Of a DNA stretch of 64,000 bases, positions 4,540 through 41,787 are shown in pieces; the stretch's first letter is position 1, and every line of letters starts with the position of its first letter. The notes under the pieces were generated by a model, which was given only the letters and a program-made list of their open reading frames with translations, was not told the DNA's origin and made no database searches. The position numbers and the translations under genes were made by a program. The stretch comes from Hyphomonadaceae bacterium (GTDB lineage Bacteria; Pseudomonadota; Alphaproteobacteria; Caulobacterales; Aquidulcibacteraceae), in contig JALHQO010000002.1 of the NCBI GenBank assembly GCA_022841905.1, positions 62,001 to 126,000 on the forward strand, written 5' to 3'.

Positions 4540-5304
4540 ATGACGTCGGCTCAAACCAAAGTGATCGTGCGCGAAGGCGTGACGCTGATTTTGATCGGCG
4601 CCTTCCTCACCATCACCAATCCGTTCGGCGCAACGTCGGGATTGCCGCTTCTCAGCAGCTTCGCCTATTGGACCGGGCTTGTATTTCTCGGCTGGCTCGG
4701 CGGACCTGTCTTCTCGCGGCTGATCCAGCGCGTTGCACCCGGCCTCTCGCGCGAAATCAACATCGCCATCGCGACGGTGTTCGTCGCCGCTTTGGTCACT
4801 AGCGCCATCGTCGTCGTGCAAACGGTCGTGCTTAGCGATCCGGTGCCGCGTTCGTATTGGCCGACGCTCTACATGCTCGTGCTCGCCATCAGCGCGGCGG
4901 TTGCGGCGGTGAGCTGGCTGGTCGAGCGCGCCTTTGCCGGTCCGCCCGGCGCGGTGACGCATGCACCAGCAGCCGGCGCGCCCGCCGCAAGCGTGCGCTT
5001 TCTTGAGCGGCTCCCCGCGAAGATTAAAGGCGGCGTCATCTATGCGGTGTCGGCCGAGGATCACTATCTGCGCGTCCACACATCGAAGGGCGCGGACTTG
5101 GTGTTGATGCGGTTGTCGGACGCCATCGTTGAACTCGAAGGCCTCGAAGGCGCGCAAACGCATCGCTCTTGGTGGGTCGCGCGCGACGCGGTGGAGAGCG
5201 TGAGGCGCGAGGGCGATAAGGTGACGCTCGTTCTGAAGGGCGCCGCCGAAGCGCCAGTGAGCCGGCCCAACGTGCGGCCGCTGCGCGAAGCCGGCTGGTT
5301 CTAG
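4540..5304 (+). CDS. Membrane-anchored LytTR-family regulator (copy 2)
   Basis: Second member of a tandem pair with the same architecture: four hydrophobic helices (about residues 8-135) followed by a LytTR DNA-binding domain (about 155-254). The LytTR domain is nearly identical to copy 1, ending in the same PVSRPNVRPLREAGWF. The membrane half is clearly diverged. I chose the ATG at 4540; a GTG is directly in front of it at 4537. The pattern suggests a duplication in which the DNA-binding half was conserved and the sensory half was free to change. The pair may recognise the same or overlapping targets; this is inference. Confidence 0.85.
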   Translation: MTSAQTKVIVREGVTLILIGAFLTITNPFGATSGLPLLSSFAYWTGLVFLGWLGGPVFSRLIQRVAPGLSREINIAIATVFVAALVTSAIVVVQTVVLSDPVPRSYWPTLYMLVLAISAAVAAVSWLVERAFAGPPGAVTHAPAAGAPAASVRFLERLPAKIKGGVIYAVSAEDHYLRVHTSKGADLVLMRLSDAIVELEGLEGAQTHRSWWVARDAVESVRREGDKVTLVLKGAAEAPVSRPNVRPLREAGWF

Positions 5305-36187: not shown

Positions 36188-36877
36188 TCACCCAGCCCGG
36201 ACCATGCCGCCTTGTTCGGCGCCCGCCCATTGCCGCTTCAGGTTGTGCGCGCCGGCCGCTGCGATTTCCAAAGCGCGCTTGGCTTGCTCCTGCCCGCGCA
36301 CGTCGCGCAGATCGGGCACCGCGTCGCCGCCGATGAGATCGCCGCGCCCCGGCGGTTTGATTGCAGCGCCGCCGCGGAAGTGATTGACCAGTGAGAGCAG
36401 CGATGGCGCGGCGATGACTTCGCCGCCAGCCCACGCCGCTTCCGCGCCGCACACTTCAGGGCAGATGAAACCTGCGCCCATCCCATGCGCGGCCATTGCG
36501 GCCGGCAATGCGCCGGGCGCCGGCGCCAACGATCCATCGAGACCAAGCTCGCCAAAGCAAACGACGCCATCGAGCGCGTCGTGCGGCAGCGCGCCGATCG
36601 CCGCCATCATGGCGAGCGCAATCGGCAGATCGTAGTGCGTCCCCTCTTTCGGCAGATCGGCGGGCGCGAGGTTGACGATCAAGCGACCCGGCGGGATCGC
36701 GAGCCCGATCGAGGCAAACGCCGCGCGCACACGCTCGCGCGACTCGGAAACGGCCTTATCCCCGAGGCCAACGATCACGATGCTTGGATTGCCGCCCGTT
36801 AGCTGAACTTGAACTTCGATGCGGCGCGCTTCGAGCCCTGCGAAGGCCACCGTCACCGCGTTTGCACACGTCTGCAT
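36188..36877 (-). pseudogene. comM: comM/yifB remnant, truncated before the ATPase core
   Basis: N-terminal domain of a ComM/YifB Mg-chelatase-like AAA protein, known as a hexameric helicase needed for branch migration in natural transformation. The ATG at 36877 begins MQTCANAVTVAFAGLEARRI, and ALSESRERVRAAF-type sequence and GTHYDLPIALAMM follow normally to RALEIAAAGAHNL (about residue 215). A full-length protein would continue there into Walker A. Here it turns into unrelated sequence (KRQWAGAEQGGMVRAG) and stops, so about 280 residues with the whole ATPase core are missing. The hybrid kinase gene begins 50 bp downstream, so no missing part is hidden nearby. An insertion element also sits just upstream of its start. 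Confidence 0.85.
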
Positions 36878-36887
36878 ATGCCCACCC

Positions 36888-36896
36888 TTATCCACA
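36888..36896 (+). promoter_or_regulatory. Perfect DnaA box just outside the insertion element
   Basis: TTATCCACA, the consensus DnaA binding 9-mer, lies 11 bp upstream of the element's left end and 11 bp upstream of the comM start (on comM's strand it reads TGTGGATAA). It could be a chance site, but two more perfect copies lie inside the element's right end. Confidence 0.45.
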
Positions 36897-36899
36897 GGC

Positions 36900-36907
36900 A
36901 GGGATCC
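36900..36907 (+). repeat. Target-site duplication, left copy (AGGGATCC)
   Basis: AGGGATCC directly abuts the left terminal inverted repeat and is repeated exactly at 41653-41660 directly after the right terminal repeat. An 8-bp direct duplication fits IS1-family transposition, and its perfection suggests a fairly recent insertion. Confidence 0.95.
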
Positions 36908-36927
36908 GGTACTGTCTCAGTTTGAAA
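36908..36927 (+). repeat. Left terminal inverted repeat of the insertion element
   Basis: GGTACTGTCTCAGTTTGAAA, the exact reverse complement of 41633-41652. Confidence 0.95.
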
Positions 36928-36970
36928 TCGATCTGACCTTGACCGGCGTTGAAAAGTAGGCCGGTCCGGG

Positions 36971-36992
36971 CCATGCTTAGCGCAAAGCATGG
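36971..36992 (+). promoter_or_regulatory. Dyad CCATGCTT-N6-AAGCATGG in front of the first passenger gene
   Basis: An 8-bp perfect inverted repeat with a 6-base spacer, ending 11 bp before the ATG at 37003 and overlapping the first bases of its GGAGGG ribosome-binding site. The core ATGCTT-N6-AAGCAT recurs in front of the transposase at 38865-38886. It could be an operator for a shared regulator or an mRNA hairpin that partly hides the ribosome-binding site. Confidence 0.6.
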
Positions 36993-37002
36993 AGGGCCGA
37001 AT

Positions 37003-37179
37003 ATGCGCAAGTTTCTGCTGGGTCTCGCCTGTGGGCTGGTGGTTGGCGTTGTCTGCGTTGCAGGCGTCCAGGCCTACGCCAACAGTTATATGATGGGTTG
37101 GGACGTCGTGCGCGGTGGCAGGGTGATCTGCCAGGACCCTTTCATGTGGACTTCCACACGCGAGATTGAGTGCGACTAA
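37003..37179 (+). CDS. Passenger protein 1, 58-residue single-pass or exported peptide
   Basis: Small protein starting MRKFLLGLACGLVVGVVCVA, a strong N-terminal hydrophobic helix or uncleaved signal. It is followed by a short polar tail with two Cys (GRVICQDPFM and the C-terminal IECD). The ATG at 37003 has a strong GGAGGG site seven bases upstream. Its TAA overlaps the ATG of the next gene (TAATG at 37177-37181), so the two are probably translated together. I recognise no named family; the tail is presumably on the outer side of the membrane. First gene inside the left end of the element. Confidence 0.72.
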   Translation: MRKFLLGLACGLVVGVVCVAGVQAYANSYMMGWDVVRGGRVICQDPFMWTSTREIECD

Positions 37180-37412
37180 TGCCTAAAGGCCCACGCGGAG
37201 AGAAGCGCCCTACAGACGTCATAGGCGCCGCCATTAAAGTCGGCAGGCTTGCTGTTGGCGATGATACGGAAGAACTGAAAGACGATGGCAAAGACCCCGC
37301 TGCTAAAGCGCTAGGGGCTAAGGGCGGGGCGGCGCGGGCTAAGAGCCTCAGCGCGACTAAGCGCTCAGAGATCGCGAAGAAAGCCGCCAAGTCGCGCTGG
37401 AAGAAGAGCTAG
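37179..37412 (+). CDS. Passenger protein 2, 77-residue basic protein
   Basis: Small cytosolic, Lys/Ala-rich protein: MPKGPRGEKRPTDVIGAAIK at the N-terminus, an acidic middle (DDTEELKDDGKDPAAKALGA) and a basic C-terminus (GGAARAKSLSATKRSEIAKK followed by AAKSRW). The C-terminal motif recalls short histone-H1-like or KGG-type nucleic-acid-associated peptides. It is shared with the N-terminus of the RhuM-family protein in the same element. Similar small proteins are, as I recall, annotated as hypothetical in many alphaproteobacteria. It is coupled to the upstream gene (TAATG). Its stop overlaps that of the convergent 69-residue gene through CTAG at 37409-37412. Confidence 0.75.
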   Translation: MPKGPRGEKRPTDVIGAAIKVGRLAVGDDTEELKDDGKDPAAKALGAKGGAARAKSLSATKRSEIAKKAAKSRWKKS

Positions 37413-37618
37413 CGCTGGCTGACGGCTACATGAGCGAGCTTGGCATTGATCGCCTGCGCTAATGCCTTCGCTTCGTCGAACGTAGTTCCCGCCTTCAAGG
37501 TGAGGTCAGCGCAAAGCTGCTGGGGATCGGACGTTCCGATAAGCAAGGATAAGCGTCCGGCCCCATCATCACGGATATAGGCTTTGTCCAACGGGTACTT
37601 TGGTTTGCGAGATGCCAT
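37409..37618 (-). CDS. Passenger protein 3, 69-residue hypothetical protein
   Basis: Starts MASRKPKYPLDKAYIRDDGA and continues to a short alpha/beta-like protein with FDEAKALAQAINAKLAHVAV at the end. No family is recognised. The ATG at 37618 is four bases after the RhuM gene stop, and the AAGGAG at the end of the RhuM coding region serves as its ribosome-binding site. It therefore looks like the second cistron of a RhuM-plus-partner operon. That layout resembles two-gene toxin-antitoxin or effector-immunity units, but nothing else supports that role. Confidence 0.65.
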   Translation of the reverse strand: MASRKPKYPLDKAYIRDDGAGRLSLLIGTSDPQQLCADLTLKAGTTFDEAKALAQAINAKLAHVAVSQR

Positions 37619-37622
37619 TGCA

Positions 37623-38777
37623 CTACTCCTTCTTCTTTCGCGCGGCCCGCTTTTTGGTGGCAATTGCGCGAGCCTGACCAAGCAAATCTGAGACAGCCAA
37701 TTCGCCTTGATCTTCGCGCTCAAGGCGCTGGCGTTCTTTATAAACTGCGATCTCCAACGCGGCCTTTTCCTTTGCTAGAGCCATGGAAATGCGACCACGA
37801 TGTTGAGACGGGATGAGTGGACGCCCATCAAGTTGGATGAAGGCGCGCATCTTATCCAGGAACTGCGAGATTGTGGTTGGCTTTCGTTGTTCTGCTTGGC
37901 TTTCGAAGAATTCAAGCGTTGCGCTAGTCAGAATGTTGAGCGCGTTAATCTCGCCTTCTGCATAGTAGTTCTTGGCGACCTTTGCTTCATCGGCGCGCGG
38001 CATCTCACCCTCAAAGTGCATCACGCCAGCGTTAGGTTTGGATGCGTCAACGCGATGGTAGATAACCTCGGCGGCCGTTTCTTGCGTGACGGCCCAGTGC
38101 ATGGCGTTCTGGATCGTGGCGAAAAAATTCTCCTTCGCGGTATCATCCATGACGTGGAAATCGCTGCAAAACCGCGCGAGTTCGAGCACACGCGTCCACA
38201 TTCGCTTCTCTGAACTGCGAATGTCGCGAATGCGAGATAGCAGTTCTTCAAAATAATCTGGGCGCCCGTCCGGATTTTTCATGCGGGCGTCGTCGATGAC
38301 GAAACCCTTGATCATGTACTGCTTGAGGATGTTTCGAGCCCAGATGCGGAACCGAGTGCCGTTCTTCGACGACACGCGCATACCCAAAGAGATGATCGCT
38401 TCTAGCTCGTGGAGCGAGGTATCGTATGCCTTGCCATCAGCGGCAGTTATCAACTCCCGCTTGATAACTGAATCACGCTCCAGTTCGCCTTCGCGAAAAA
38501 TGTTAATCAAGTGTTTACTGACGTTTTGAACCGATACGTCGAACATCTCTGCGAGTTGGCGTTGTGTGGCCCACATCGTGTCGCCGTCAAAGCGAAGTTC
38601 GACCTGAGTGCCGCGCTCGTTCGTGTAAACGACCATGTCATGACCCGTTCGCACGTCGGGCCCGCCTTCCGACCAGCGCGCTCTCGCTGCTTCCGCCGCA
38701 ATCTCTGATCGCCGCTCTGGCGTCAGCGACTCGGCGCGCGCCTTGCCCGCTCTCGCCTTGGGATCATCGTCCGCCAT
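37623..38777 (-). CDS. RhuM-family protein with N-terminal basic Ala-rich motif
   Basis: 384-residue protein. Residues about 45-155 form the RhuM core with a Bro/KilA-like DNA-binding look: VELRFDGDTMWATQRQLAEM, FDVSVQNVSKHLINIFREGE, then TRFRIWARNILKQYMIKGFV. The second half has FFATIQNAMHWAVTQETAAE and EINALNILTSATLEFFESQA, typical of the family. RhuM was named from a Salmonella pathogenicity island and its biochemical function is unknown. Unusually, residues about 8-36 (GKARAESLTPERRSEIAAEA, then ARARW) repeat a motif seen in the 77-residue passenger protein. It is divergent from the transposase, with the ATG at 38777. Confidence 0.85.
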   Translation of the reverse strand: MADDDPKARAGKARAESLTPERRSEIAAEAARARWSEGGPDVRTGHDMVVYTNERGTQVELRFDGDTMWATQRQLAEMFDVSVQNVSKHLINIFREGELERDSVIKRELITAADGKAYDTSLHELEAIISLGMRVSSKNGTRFRIWARNILKQYMIKGFVIDDARMKNPDGRPDYFEELLSRIRDIRSSEKRMWTRVLELARFCSDFHVMDDTAKENFFATIQNAMHWAVTQETAAEVIYHRVDASKPNAGVMHFEGEMPRADEAKVAKNYYAEGEINALNILTSATLEFFESQAEQRKPTTISQFLDKMRAFIQLDGRPLIPSQHRGRISMALAKEKAALEIAVYKERQRLEREDQGELAVSDLLGQARAIATKKRAARKKKE

Positions 38778-38864
38778 TCGTTAACTCCGGATTCATGCTT
38801 ACAGCGTCTGCTTGCGGCTGCTTGCAGGGTATGCCTGCACGGCGAGTCGGGCAAGGGGTTTGCG

Positions 38865-38886
38865 TTATGCTTGACGCTAAGCATAA
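38865..38886 (+). promoter_or_regulatory. Dyad TTATGCTT-N6-AAGCATAA over the transposase -35 region
   Basis: An 8-bp perfect inverted repeat with a 6-base spacer that covers the -35 hexamer of the transposase promoter. The ATGCTT-N6-AAGCAT core is identical to that at 36971-36992. Its position would allow repression of transposase transcription by a dimeric regulator, possibly also touching the divergent RhuM promoter. Confidence 0.65.
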
Positions 38887-38899
38887 AGTTCAGTATAAG
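38871..38899 (+). promoter_or_regulatory. Sigma-70 type promoter of the transposase
   Basis: TTGACG at 38871-38876 and TATAAG at 38894-38899 are separated by exactly 17 bp. Transcription would be expected to begin around 38905-38907, that is at or next to the ATG at 38906. The mRNA may therefore be leaderless or nearly so. The GGGAGG at 38899-38904 would then lie mostly upstream of the start site. Confidence 0.65.
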
Positions 38900-38905
38900 G
38901 GAGGC

Positions 38906-39793
38906 ATGGCAAACGTGCTGCCCCTCGCGAAACGCGTTCAAATCCTGAACCTGCTCAATGAGGGCATGTCGATGCGGGCGATCTCCCGCGTCGCTGACGT
39001 GAGCATCAATACCGTCTCCAAGCTTCTGGTGGACGCGGGCGAGACTTGCCTCGATCTGCACGATCAACTCGTGACGCACGTTCAGTCCAAGAATGTTCAA
39101 TGCGATGAGATTTGGTCGTTCTGCTACGCCAAGCAGCGCAACGTCCCGGACGCGAAGGCCGCGCCCTATGGCGCTGGCGACGTCTGGACGTGGACGGCGC
39201 TTGATAGCGACTCCAAGCTGATCATCTCTTATCTCGCCTCAGGCCGCACGCAGGGCGCGGCTATCGCCTTCATGGAAGATGTTGCGCGCCGCATCACTGG
39301 CCGCGTCCAGCTCACCACGGACGGCCATGGCTCGTATCCCTACGCCGTGCACGTCGCGTTCGGCAAAAACATCGATTTCGCGCAGCTCATCAAAACCTAT
39401 GCCGGCGAAACTGGCAGCGGCCCTGAGCGCAAATACTCTCCCCCGGTCTGCACCGGCGCCTACAAGAAAATCCGCCAAGGCAATCCGGATGAATCGAAGA
39501 TCTCAACGTCTCACGTTGAGCGCGCGAACCTGACCATGCGGATGGGAATGCGCCGCTTTACGCGCCTGACCAACGGTCACTCTAAAAAGTACGCCAACCA
39601 CATTTACGCGCTGGCGCTTTTCTTCATGCACTACAATTTCGTGCGCCAGCACAAGGCGCACAAACTCTCGCCCGCGATGGCGGCCGGAATTACCGATCGC
39701 CTTTGGTCGATGGAAGATATCGCGGAGCGGATCGATATCCGCGCTAACGCGCCCAAGGCGCGCGGACCCTACAAGAAAAGGAATGCAGAATGA
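38906..39793 (+). CDS. IS1-family (ISMhu11-type) DDE transposase
   Basis: 295-residue transposase from the ATG at 38906 (MANVLPLAKRVQILNLLNEG). The N-terminal helix-turn-helix is SMRAISRVADVSINTVSKLL (about residues 20-40). The catalytic acids are Asp in VQCDEIWSFCYAKQR (about 70), Asp in QLTTDGHGSYPYAV (about 135) and Glu in STSHVERANLTMRMGMRRFT (about 205). FALFFMHYNFVRQHK-type sequence follows (ALFFMHYNFVRQHKAHKLSP), which is usual for these transposases. The reading frame is uninterrupted. The frame is open upstream to 38564 but overlaps the RhuM gene and is not transposase-like there. The stop overlaps the start of the next gene. Confidence 0.93.
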   Translation: MANVLPLAKRVQILNLLNEGMSMRAISRVADVSINTVSKLLVDAGETCLDLHDQLVTHVQSKNVQCDEIWSFCYAKQRNVPDAKAAPYGAGDVWTWTALDSDSKLIISYLASGRTQGAAIAFMEDVARRITGRVQLTTDGHGSYPYAVHVAFGKNIDFAQLIKTYAGETGSGPERKYSPPVCTGAYKKIRQGNPDESKISTSHVERANLTMRMGMRRFTRLTNGHSKKYANHIYALALFFMHYNFVRQHKAHKLSPAMAAGITDRLWSMEDIAERIDIRANAPKARGPYKKRNAE

Positions 39794-40056
39794 GCGGCGC
39801 AACCAAACCTGATCACCTTGAAGTATCGTACATCAACACCACCGCGCTTATCCTTGATATGCTGGTTGCGGGCGGAACGGTGCCAGTACACGCTCTAACG
39901 CAGTCGCTGACCGAACTTGAGGCGATGTGCGCGAACGGCGGTTACGGCCAATCGGTTGCGCACATGCAGCACTTTCGCGAGTTTCTCGAACAGCGCGCAG
40001 TTCAGCGAGCAGCAGCGCAATCTCTGATGCAGGAACCACCAGAAGGGTCGGCGTAA
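39790..40056 (+). CDS. Passenger protein 4, 88-residue hypothetical protein coupled to the transposase
   Basis: Starts MSGATKPDHLEVSYINTTAL and is mainly helical (SLTELEAMCANGGYGQ, HFREFLEQRAVQRAAAQSLM). The ATG at 39790 overlaps the transposase TGA by four bases (ATGA), implying coupled translation. I recognise no family. An ORF tied so closely to a transposase could be an accessory or regulatory factor for transposition; that is inference. Confidence 0.65.
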   Translation: MSGATKPDHLEVSYINTTALILDMLVAGGTVPVHALTQSLTELEAMCANGGYGQSVAHMQHFREFLEQRAVQRAAAQSLMQEPPEGSA

Positions 40057-40083
40057 GCAAAATCATCGGTGCGAAAATCATAA

Positions 40084-40110
40084 CCCCATTATGGGGCCGT
40101 TCGTTTTGAG
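40084..40110 (+). terminator. Short hairpin between the transposase operon and the DUF4760 gene
   Basis: CCCCA at 40084-40088 pairs with TGGGG at 40092-40096 around TTA, followed by CCGTTCGTTTT. It is a weak candidate terminator for the plus-strand transposase operon, placed between two convergent transcription units. Confidence 0.35.
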
Positions 40111-40125
40111 CGCGGGGTTGCTACT

Positions 40126-40884
40126 TTAGTTGTCTTGATGCGCGCGCGATGCGGCCCGTTGCTCAGCACGGATTTCTTCGTGCCACCGCTCTGCGAGCGC
40201 CTGAAACTCGATGTAAGCGTTTGGGAATTTCTGCTGCATCCACTCCACGAGCGGCTGAAGCTCGCGCCAGTCTTTGACCAGAGTCGCACGCCACCAGCGC
40301 TTATACATGCGCTCGTCGATGGCACCCGTTTGAATGCCGATCGCGAACGTCTCATATCGATTGAGAACCGCAAAAATGGCAGCTTTCGTTTCCAGCCACC
40401 GTTTCTCTTCGATTTCCCAAAACTCGGCCCAGCACTTGTCGCGCCACTGTTTTTTGGTCCCCTTGAAAACCCTAGGAGCTGTGGGGGCCTGCCACTTCGC
40501 CTTTGTCCGCTTTTGATGATCATTCAGCGTGTCGTAATTGGCGAGCCTGTCGCCGTTATCGTCGCGCACGGATCTAAACAACGTCCGCTGAAGGCCGACG
40601 GTCGTGTCAGTATGCTCCTGAAAAATGTGGGACATTGTATTGTTGCGAGCGGCTGTTGTGCGTGTCTCAACGTAAAGCGCGCGCGCATACACGAGCGATG
40701 CGAGAAAGATGATCGCTTGCGCAATTTCGCCAACTGCGCCCCAGCTCTCGGAGTACCTGACGAAATTAGTTGAGAGGGAGTTGAAAAACGGCGGCCAGAT
40801 GAACGGCAGCATGCTGCCGATTATCACCAATACAATCGCCGTAACTACGCGCAGCGCGTAGCGCAGAAACTTCTTACGCGGCAT
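40126..40884 (-). CDS. DUF4760-like membrane protein (passenger)
   Basis: 252-residue protein with two N-terminal transmembrane helices (about residues 10-32 and 50-72, AIVLVIIGSMLPFIWPPF and GEIAQAIIFLASLVYARALY). A long cytosolic helical domain follows. The latter carries AIFAVLNRYETFAIGIQTGA and DERMYKRWWRATLVKDWREL, the pattern of DUF4760 proteins, whose function is unknown. A similar two-helix-plus-helical-domain layout is seen in some membrane-anchored defence effectors, but that parallel is only architectural. The ATG at 40884 has no close gene upstream. Base composition is visibly lower in G+C than the host genes. Confidence 0.75.
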   Translation of the reverse strand: MPRKKFLRYALRVVTAIVLVIIGSMLPFIWPPFFNSLSTNFVRYSESWGAVGEIAQAIIFLASLVYARALYVETRTTAARNNTMSHIFQEHTDTTVGLQRTLFRSVRDDNGDRLANYDTLNDHQKRTKAKWQAPTAPRVFKGTKKQWRDKCWAEFWEIEEKRWLETKAAIFAVLNRYETFAIGIQTGAIDERMYKRWWRATLVKDWRELQPLVEWMQQKFPNAYIEFQALAERWHEEIRAEQRAASRAHQDN

Positions 40885-40983
40885 CCCCGAGAGCCTCCCC
40901 GCTCGTTTAGGTTGAGGCGGAGATTCACGAGTTCTTTACATTAGGGAATAGTGTTCGCGGATTGGGGGAAGAAGTGGGGAGGA

Positions 40984-41016
40984 GCTAAGGGTGGGGCGTT
41001 GGCCCCTTCCCTTAGC
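40984..41016 (-). terminator. Strong hairpin at the end of the 23-residue microprotein gene
   Basis: GCTAAGGG at 40984-40991 pairs with CCCTTAGC at 41009-41016, and GGGGC at 40993-40997 pairs with GCCCC at 41002-41006, with a small internal bulge and a GTTG loop. On the minus strand it begins inside the stop codon of the microprotein and could stop transcription before the DUF4760 gene. There is no T-tract. Confidence 0.4.
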
Positions 41017-41083
41017 CCATACCCTCGGCGCCCAGAGCGGCGGCGACGGCGACGGCGACGGCGACGATGTTGTACTTCGTCAT
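41012..41083 (-). CDS. 23-residue hydrophobic microprotein (candidate)
   Basis: A tiny reading frame starting MTKYNIVAVAVAVAVAAALG and ending after AEGMG. It has a well-placed AAGGAG ribosome-binding site seven bases before the ATG at 41083 and a promoter-like pair (TTTCAC, 17 bp, TATATG) about 22 bp further upstream. The Val-Ala run comes from a GTCGCC hexamer repeat (four copies), so it may be slippage-prone. The product would be a short hydrophobic membrane-spanning or membrane-lying peptide, reminiscent of type I toxin peptides. This is inference; no homologue is known to me. Confidence 0.5.
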   Translation of the reverse strand: MTKYNIVAVAVAVAAALGAEGMG

Positions 41084-41104
41084 TCTCGTTCTCCTTCAAT
41101 CCCT

Positions 41105-41133
41105 CATATAATCAGTAGCGTAGTCGTGTGAAA
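41105..41133 (-). promoter_or_regulatory. Candidate promoter of the microprotein gene
   Basis: On the minus strand TTTCAC (41133-41128) and TATATG (41110-41105) are 17 bp apart, giving a predicted start about 15 bp upstream of the AAGGAG-ATG of the microprotein. Confidence 0.45.
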
Positions 41134-41284
41134 CACCGCGTGAACGGATGGCTCATATTGACAGACGCAACCTAACCTAGGGCTAACGGCTAAGCCGCGC
41201 CCAGGTTTCGGCGTTAATAAGGCGCACCGCAGCTTCCCGCAAGGCGTGTAAGACGTAAGGGTATCTTTTTGCAGCGAATCGTAG
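41134..41284. other. Non-coding stretch inside the element
   Basis: Between the microprotein promoter and the 50-residue peptide. It contains several short TAAC/CTAAGG-like repeats (CCTAACCTAGGGCTAACGGCTAAGCC around 41170-41196) but no reading frame, RNA gene or clear promoter that I can support. Confidence 0.4.
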
Positions 41285-41437
41285 ATGGCGAGCCACTATC
41301 CCCCACCAGAGGAGTATGAACGCGAGCGCCAGCGCCTAGACGTTATCCGGCCTTGGCATCGCATCGGATGGGTTTTGCTCGGCGTCCTTGGCGTCGTCGC
41401 CGTCGCGCTGACGCTCCGGGAGATCGCGGGCGGGTAG
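41285..41437 (+). CDS. 50-residue single-pass membrane peptide (candidate passenger)
   Basis: Starts MASHYPPPEEYERERQRLDV, a charged head. A hydrophobic helix follows (WVLLGVLGVVAVALTL, about residues 29-44) and the peptide ends REIAGG. A stop codon lies directly in front of the ATG at 41285, so this is the longest possible form. There is no convincing ribosome-binding site. The amphipathic head plus single helix is protein-like, and it is read in the same direction as the transposase. A 62-residue frame on the other strand overlaps it and looks less protein-like. Confidence 0.45.
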   Translation: MASHYPPPEEYERERQRLDVIRPWHRIGWVLLGVLGVVAVALTLREIAGG

Positions 41438-41632
41438 CTCGCTCTCCCGCTGGTGATGGCGAATCTCGCGGACTGCGGGAGGCAGGAACCATTCGCGGCG
41501 TGACATGGTAAAACCCCAGAACAAACAGGAGCTTAGCCCCTGTGGATAAGTTCATGGTGTGTGGATAACGCGCGTCAGGCCAGAAAAGCCGAGCGATTCC
41601 AGCGCCGTAGCCCGCTAAGCACAAGTTTCAGT
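41438..41632. other. Non-coding right end of the insertion element
   Basis: About 195 bp between the last peptide and the right terminal repeat. It contains two perfect DnaA boxes in the same orientation and no convincing gene. Confidence 0.5.
41541..41568 (-). promoter_or_regulatory. Pair of perfect DnaA boxes near the right end of the element
   Basis: TGTGGATAA at 41541-41549 and again at 41560-41568, both the reverse complement of the consensus TTATCCACA and 19 bp apart start to start. They lie 65-92 bp inside the right terminal repeat. Some transposons carry DnaA boxes at an end that affect transposition; whether these do is unknown. Confidence 0.55.
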
Positions 41633-41652
41633 TTTCAAACTGAGACAGTACC
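41633..41652 (-). repeat. Right terminal inverted repeat of the insertion element
   Basis: Exact 20-bp reverse complement of the left terminal repeat at 36908-36927. Confidence 0.95.
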
Positions 41653-41660
41653 AGGGATCC
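41653..41660 (+). repeat. Target-site duplication, right copy (AGGGATCC)
   Basis: Identical to 36900-36907 and directly adjacent to the right terminal repeat. Confidence 0.95.
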
Positions 41661-41787
41661 ATAATGTACAGACGCAGAACAAAAGCGCAACAGAAAAAGA
41701 ACTGTTGCGGGCGGGCGGTGTGGACAACGCCAAGATTACCCCCAGCATGCGCCGAAGGCTACGGGTCGAGCCGACGTGAAGCGAATT

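Follow-up and report, generated by a model that had tools for sequence, protein, structure and literature searches.

Evidence for a modular IS1-like transposon family with exchangeable, partly defence-like cargo in Alphaproteobacteria

Why does an element with a single transposase gene hold, between its two ends, several genes that have nothing to do with transposition? The question is raised by an intact IS1-like element of 4745 bp at positions 36908-41652 of a 64,000-nucleotide stretch of a Hyphomonadaceae genome (assembly GCA_022841905.1, contig JALHQO010000002.1), the whole of which is called the window hereafter. Very probably, the answer is a modular transposon, in which the ends, the target duplication, the transposase and mostly also a small basic protein, here named KGG, are fixed, three slots hold unrelated and partly defence- or toxin-antitoxin-like cargo, and the whole unit inserts precisely.

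A complete element in a single copy

The two terminal arms are complementary at all 20 positions and are bounded by an exact 8-bp duplication (Table 1). When the 12-kb arms were block-shuffled 40 times, the best inverted repeat accompanied by an exact 8-bp duplication reached 12-16 of 20 positions, and 16/20 in three shuffles; the perfect ends, the duplication and the one intact transposase of the original prediction were all recovered. Within its own genome (3.56 Mb, 27 contigs), a search allowing up to three mismatches found only the two ends of this element, together with one transposase of its type, so that the element is single-copy. A composite transposon was rejected, there being one transposase and two single ends rather than two IS copies. 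The G+C content of the element is 56.9%, versus 64.9% in the nearby flanks.

The original prediction had suggested a search for empty sites, and the pre-insertion site is preserved in the sister genome G001: AGGGCTCC occurs there once, and the flanks of the window element, put together around a single duplication, align with it over their full length at 94% identity. Among 30 genomes of the genus (that of the window and 29 searched), 21 were comparable at the start of the host gene comM, where the element is absent from 17 and present in four; the remaining nine gave no match in the flank search. Gene prediction on the element returned seven non-transposase open reading frames (ORFs) of 58, 77, 69, 384 (RhuM), 88, 252 (DUF4760) and 50 aa, so the first count of at least eight passenger genes was too high; RhuM had measured 337 aa with the start chosen by the ORF caller.

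A family of such elements

Relatives of the transposase occur in 21 of 101 near genomes, with a single match in 18 of those 21. Of 385 genomes drawn evenly across the class, 33 were positive, coming from 32 of the 277 genera sampled; with partial matches counted, a single match was present in 28 of these genomes. An order draw found relatives in 30 of 398 genomes. In a phylum draw, for which the number of other classes drawn is not shown, all 13 positive genomes out of 299 belonged to the class of the window. Among 84,980 species genomes scanned, at least 557 relatives were detected; most titles among the 80 kept are, by our reading, alphaproteobacterial, with three from Nitrospirales/Nitrospirae and one gammaproteobacterial metagenome-assembled genome.

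The ends were sought without assuming them, by requiring an exact 8-bp duplication and an inverted repeat on either side of each transposase. With a threshold of 14/20, ends appeared at 135 of 186 places and in 37 of 186 direct-arm controls; because this noise was high, the threshold was set at 16/20 plus a GG start. This gave 121 elements, including three added by hand: L031 (8/9), L034, L037 (7/8). Removing one repeat and adding 18 elements from the class draw and 12 from the order draw made up 150 distinct elements, to which the counts below refer unless another total is stated. In the class draw, 29 of the 41 non-window places were fetched, after exclusion of partial matches, of a match with a stop and of two known loci; such ends were present at 21 of these 29 loci, three of them repeating earlier loci, versus 0/30 in the direct-arm control, and several loci without ends stop at a contig edge. 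The order draw gave such ends at 14 of 18 fetched loci, two being repeats.

The resulting family is mostly alphaproteobacterial. Named members with exact duplications sit on plasmids of Hoeflea sp. IMCC20628, Mesorhizobium loti 582 and Acidiphilium multivorum JZ-6, and lengths range from 1323 to 9705 bp (median 3172 bp). The ends do recur in other genomes around cargo and seldom around the transposase alone (4/150 below 2 kb). Together with the empty site in G001 and a duplicated unit in Sphingopyxis described below, these elements bear out the view of a complete IS1-like element with non-transposition genes. One 7.4-kb member (L044:8841-16196) has a 1510-aa ORF and divergent ends, GGTAGTCCCCTAGTTTGAAT.

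Ends of the form GGnnnTG and duplications of 8-9 bp are the hallmarks of the IS1 family, and both are seen here. Classical IS1 encodes InsA-InsB in two frames joined by a frameshift; the present transposase is one uninterrupted frame of 295 aa, as in the single-ORF IS1 group, which we take to be the ISMhu11 group. A DDE/RNase H fold is predicted for it: D67, D139 and E205 are invariant across 42 transposase sequences and are presumably the catalytic residues, and the structural model (pLDDT 86, pTM 0.83) matches ISCth4, Mos1, Tn5 and integrases, while searches of PDB sequences with the KGG and transposase profiles gave no match. The transposase scores 62 bits with the IS1 model NF033558 (cut-off 100; E 6e-17) and 20.6 with PF03400 (cut-off 24.1). 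Judged from sequence, the family is IS1-like by its ends, duplications and weak profile matches, though below the curated cut-offs.

A conserved chassis with three exchangeable slots

The fixed parts of the family are the two ends, the KGG protein near the left end and the transposase. The ends begin GGTAGTG and follow the consensus GGTAGTGTCTCAGTTTGAAAT, and 145/150 elements have their transposase to the right of the middle. The KGG protein, of about 77 aa, is encoded left of the transposase and on the same strand in 117 of 120 gene copies; the copy on the M. loti plasmid is annotated 'histone H1'. The original prediction had listed this basic, Ala/Lys-rich protein as cargo, yet its presence in 119/150 elements makes it a core part. 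Its best profile matches in 140 elements amounted to 112 genes (459 kb) versus five in the flanks (1980 kb), three of these five on loci with a second transposase match. Of 15 near-full-length KGG genes in the 101 near genomes, 14 have a transposase, or what remains of one, nearby; the fifteenth belongs to a non-autonomous derivative of 880 bp (L207:9132-10011), which has both ends, a 7/8 duplication and a small ORF and lacks a transposase. The AlphaFold2 model of KGG has three helices (pLDDT 85, pTM 0.39). A 282-aa protein at L093:8655-9500 matches the KGG profile and reaches past it.

A palindrome, ATGCTTNnAAGCAT (n 2-9, usually 6), was detected with up to two mismatches near the left end in 61/121 elements and ahead of the transposase in 73/121, compared with 119/2420 control windows. 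A promoter overlapping the palindrome, as read by eye, was dropped when a sigma-70 scan found no site.

Three slots lie between these parts, the first from the left end to KGG, the second from there to the transposase and the third from the transposase to the right end, and they are filled with unrelated cargo even in near relatives. The transposases of the window element and L027 are 90% identical, and the two DNAs share just four matching blocks (element positions 1-88, 272-474, 1960-2868 and 4693-4745), namely the left end, the KGG gene, the operator-like palindrome with the transposase, and the right end. Likewise, chassis blocks alone are common to each of the pairs L059/L063, L052/L053 and L072/L131. 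The cargo set of the window recurs in none of the other elements: full-length RhuM and the 69-aa ORF are unique to it, and DUF4760 has a relative in L217. Sphingopyxis sp. PET50, however, carries two identical 3316-bp copies at two sites with the duplications CGGAGCCG and CAATGCGC, and that unit therefore moved with its cargo. The proposal that the cargo travels as a unit accordingly holds for this relative, but the particular set in the window has no second occurrence among the elements. It is the chassis, not the cargo set, that the family conserves.

Would an ordinary long insertion sequence, which gained passenger genes once or a few times and passed them on passively with its transposase, produce the same picture? 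Long single-ORF IS members do exist, and L035 and L292 are close relatives sharing site and chassis. On a FastTree tree of the 150 transposases (47/147 inner branches weak), however, five cargo labels required 62 changes, versus 64.7 after shuffling, with 25/200 shuffles as low; the RmrA-type label alone took 25 changes for 26 rows. Pairwise distances of the KGG protein correlate with those of the transposase at 0.55 (0/500 permutations as high), whereas the five cargo families give values around zero, none significant (RmrA 0.08, P63C -0.17, PD-Lambda-2_B -0.07, and the other two -0.01 and 0.20). The KGG protein follows the transposase tree and the cargo does not. Since four different cargo sets moreover occupy one and the same site (see below), passive inheritance appears very improbable to us, and we retain the modular transposon.

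What the cargo encodes

Hidden Markov searches placed the cargo in RmrA-like (26), P63C (20) and PD-Lambda-2_B-like (16) clusters, followed by AAA/STAND-like (8), Panacea (5), NYN (4), Abi_2 (4), DNA methylase (4), Fic (3) and HEC-04-like (3) ones, the names being taken either from a single representative of each cluster or from a tally combined with our own matching. PADLOC models matched by cargo include RmrA, RmrT, PD-Lambda-2_B, HEC-04 and PDC-S05. At 1e-8, 223 models matched in 111 dereplicated cargo proteins and 12 in 112 length-matched flank proteins; many of the models are redundant (36 for RhuM alone) and the match listing covers 25 rows, so the comparison gives a direction and not a ratio. 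The 111 proteins come from 117 listed, six having been left out, two of them for length. Methyltransferase models dominate a PADLOC scan of the 90 longest cargo proteins, from which no count was drawn. By these sequence matches the cargo is apparently rich in defence or toxin-antitoxin-like genes.

RosmerTA-type cargo seems to be one interchangeable load among many. Representatives of clusters C1 and C7 or C9 match RmrA and RmrT, and in the relatives an RmrA with a helix-turn-helix and an M78 peptidase stands beside RmrT, as checked on one representative per cluster; for the partner cluster C5 no model matched. One RosmerTA system was shown to be active against phage (PMC10440598). A KGG stretch is fused to the N-terminal part of the P63C cargo and occurs also within the window RhuM; P63C proteins account for 18 of the 21 cargo proteins of at least 130 aa that match (three of the 18 repeat loci), versus a match in 1 of 1537 flank proteins. 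By our reading, the 9.7-kb element L042:8910-18614 holds genes of metal-efflux type (outer-membrane efflux, HlyD, cation-efflux, UPF0060). On the Acidiphilium plasmid, RES/Xre genes were discarded as cargo, being located outside the element there.

The original prediction had seen no cargo of known function. The window RhuM, however, matches the PADLOC model PDC-S05 nearly over its full length (E 1e-110), and PMC3710099 describes RhuM as a proposed toxin domain that is often fused to DOC. Compared with described RhuM, the window copy would differ in its N-terminal KGG-like stretch, its 69-aa neighbour and its place in a transposon slot. No RhuM relative was confirmed among 22 pattern matches in viral contigs, and a search of RhuM against PDB sequences gave one weak match alone (E 0.077).

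Target sites at comM and LexA-like boxes

In four species of the window's genus, elements with differing cargo sit at the identical site before comM. The four duplications (AGGGATCC, CGGGTCTC, GATGCGAG and GATGCGGG) match at 8/8 positions within genomes and do not match between them, and GAACAAAN4CAAC lies 16 nt past the right duplication in all four. We read this as a LexA-like box, the alphaproteobacterial LexA motif being presumably GTTC-N7-GTTC. The 16-nt spacing of the window is found in L027, L028 and L029, at the comM site, and again at recA in L035 and L292.

It may be argued that comM was hit once, in an ancestor, and that cargo was later exchanged in place, without repeated targeting. 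In keeping with this, the insertions in the four species are equally placed with respect to the box, and their transposases form a single clade. Yet the site is empty in 17 of the 21 compared genus genomes, among them the sister G001, whose ComM is 98% identical; on the ComM tree (3/18 inner branches well supported, forcing two changes) the filled label takes four changes; the duplications agree within genomes only; and the boxes near recA and the sidA-like genes represent other sites. A single comM insertion is hence rather unlikely in our judgement, and repeated targeting is preferred.

Strict forms of the motif lay within 100 bp of 6/138 elements versus 4/2047 control windows (P 0.0004); a relaxed motif, set after seeing the matches, lay near 12/138 elements versus 5/4159 windows. 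Over all elements, a LexA-like box stands within about 110 nt in 14/150 versus 7/6638 control windows, and at 15-17 nt, on the right side and in one orientation, in 9/150 (the four comM copies, L032, L035, L077, L113 and L292) versus 0/6638. Boxes at other distances accompany L126 (6 and 24 nt), L226 (25 nt), L030 and L061 (other positions). The neighbours identified by Pfam are RecA (L032, L035, L126, L292), ComM, and IMS (L295); the ORF after L226 had no Pfam match and is imuA by our own reading, and the 29-aa peptides at L077 and L113 are presumably SidA-like.

Could the boxes merely reflect a general preference for promoter regions? The control windows were taken from whole loci and not solely from promoters, most elements are near no box, and over all sites there is a weak symmetric target preference (CAA-N3-A..8 bp..T-N3-TTG). 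Such a preference is, however, at odds with the fixed 15-17 nt spacing, side and orientation at comM, recA and sidA-like genes, and the signal persists when the comM and the L035/L292 recA sites are each counted once (5/146 right flanks versus 0/6638 windows) as well as with the stricter motif. We therefore hold promoter preference alone to be unlikely and favour an association with the boxes themselves. On the transposase tree the box label takes five changes for 12 rows and thus, unlike the cargo, follows the transposase lineage; part of this signal is the shared comM site.

The comM gene of the window keeps its first ~213 residues, compared with 507 aa in L027 and L029 and an internal gap in L028. 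Decay caused by the element is not supported, since comM matches are likewise short in the element-free G001 and G019, where contig limits may also contribute.

Gene content of the window element

The features are collected in Table 1. By our reading, the 58-aa peptide of slot 1 is membrane-like and variable among elements. The 69-aa ORF is a possible partner of RhuM; family profile scans gave it no convincing match, and none of the other elements carries a relative. Words resembling TTATCCACA, which we assume to be DnaA-box-like, occur at 41540-41570, in the right part of the element, and at 36888-36896, just left of the insertion.

Table 1. Features of the window element and its surroundings (positions in the window)
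Feature	Position	Strand	Basis or remark
Host gene comM, 5' part, truncated	36188..36877	-	Pfam ChlI E 1e-35; adjoins insertion
Left target-duplication copy AGGGATCC	36900..36907	.	single AGGGCTCC in G001 empty site
Left terminal inverted repeat GGTACTGTCTCAGTTTGAAA	36908..36927	+	family consensus GGTAGTGTCTCAGTTTGAAAT
Operator-like palindrome ATGCTTAGCGCAAAGCAT ahead of left-end genes	36973..36990	.	family-wide palindrome scan
Slot 1: 58-aa peptide, phrog_37095	37003..37179	+	E 1.6e-16, scanned with longer start
Core KGG protein, 77 aa, Ala/Lys-rich	37179..37412	+	in 119/150 elements
Slot 2: 69-aa ORF just after RhuM, same strand	37409..37618	-	ORF list
Slot 2: RhuM, 384 aa, N-terminal KGG-like stretch	37623..38777	-	Pfam PF13310 E 4e-77
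Operator-like palindrome ATGCTTGACGCTAAGCAT, 39 nt ahead of transposase	38867..38884	.	family-wide palindrome scan
Single-ORF IS1-like DDE transposase, 295 aa	38906..39793	+	profile matches; D67, D139, E205 invariant
Slot 3: 88-aa ORF, overlaps transposase stop	39790..40056	+	gene prediction
Slot 3: DUF4760 protein, 252 aa	40126..40884	-	Pfam PF15956 E 1e-23
Slot 3: 50-aa ORF	41285..41437	+	relative in L027 (cluster C20)
Right terminal inverted repeat	41633..41652	-	20/20 complementary to left arm
Right target-duplication copy AGGGATCC	41653..41660	.	exact match to left copy
LexA-like box GAACAAAAGCGCAAC, one letter off motif used	41677..41691	+	16 nt outside right duplication

Discussion

We propose that the whole unit is mobilised by its transposase, which would recognise the ends, and that cargo would be swapped when two elements recombine homologously within their chassis blocks. 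The two palindromes, one ahead of the left-end genes and the other ahead of the transposase, may represent one operator, bound perhaps by the KGG protein or by the transposase; such control could keep transposition rare and the copy number near one in each genome. The cargo may repay its host through defence or addiction, in the window element by way of RhuM, with the 69-aa ORF as a possible partner, and of DUF4760. Targets about 16 nt from LexA boxes would be picked by some transposase lineages, either through direct recognition of the box or through bound LexA. More tentatively, and as a plausible reading that we do not press, the family could be a mobile-element class of its own, with a chassis of four blocks whose three slots shuffle alphaproteobacterial defence modules and with transposase lineages that target a fixed distance from LexA-bound SOS operators (recA, comM, sidA), so that the defence cargo would be linked to the DNA-damage response.

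Several observations weigh against the modular transposon. The KGG protein is missing from 31/150 elements and its model has no structural match in PDB; the palindrome is detected in only 50-60% of elements; and the transposase stays below the curated IS1 cut-offs. In 4/150 elements the ends reach only 16/20, the level met by 3/40 shuffles without the GG demand. As to the cargo, the PADLOC counts are inflated through redundant models, much of it has no defence model (none for the P63C representative, only a weak one for the AAA cluster C6), and L042 carries efflux genes. Finally, 136/150 elements are near no LexA-like box, and in L295 the box lies on the opposite side, at 37 nt, which breaks the side rule.

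Among known systems, the single-ORF IS1 group comes close in its DDE transposase with weak IS1-profile matches, its GGTAGTG ends and its 8-bp duplications, and the transposase is annotated 'IS1 family transposase' on the three named plasmids. The present family departs from that group in that 146/150 copies measure at least, or nearly, 2 kb, which leaves space for cargo, and in the KGG gene of most members, the common palindromes and the usual single copy per genome. ISfinder presumably contains long single-ORF IS1 members, so the large members are probably known already; the modular chassis perhaps is not. Literature searches in open-licence PMC, which reached neither ISfinder nor most reviews, listed no paper whose title and abstract describe this family or LexA-box targeting. 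Tn7-like transposons work with the multi-protein TnsA/TnsB/TnsC machinery, and here one small transposase serves elements of 1.3-9.7 kb, whose slots, set between fixed blocks, mostly hold 1-3 cargo genes each. A Tn7-like reading was set aside, there being no Tns match among the eight scanned ORFs of the window element. As a concept, these transposons are nevertheless nearest, since they ferry diverse defence and toxin-antitoxin cargo between hosts, as PMC8649781 describes.

Defence genes travel on phages and islands. They also ride on large Tn7-like elements, according to the same source (PMC8649781). If our interpretation is true, Alphaproteobacteria possess a defence vehicle near the size of an insertion sequence, with sharp ends and present in 33/385 genomes across the class. 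Because the ends are sharp, each slot would directly yield candidates for defence or addiction modules (P63C, RhuM, DUF4760 and AAA among them), and the spacing to LexA-like boxes makes it possible to test directly whether a transposon can read the stress operator of its host.

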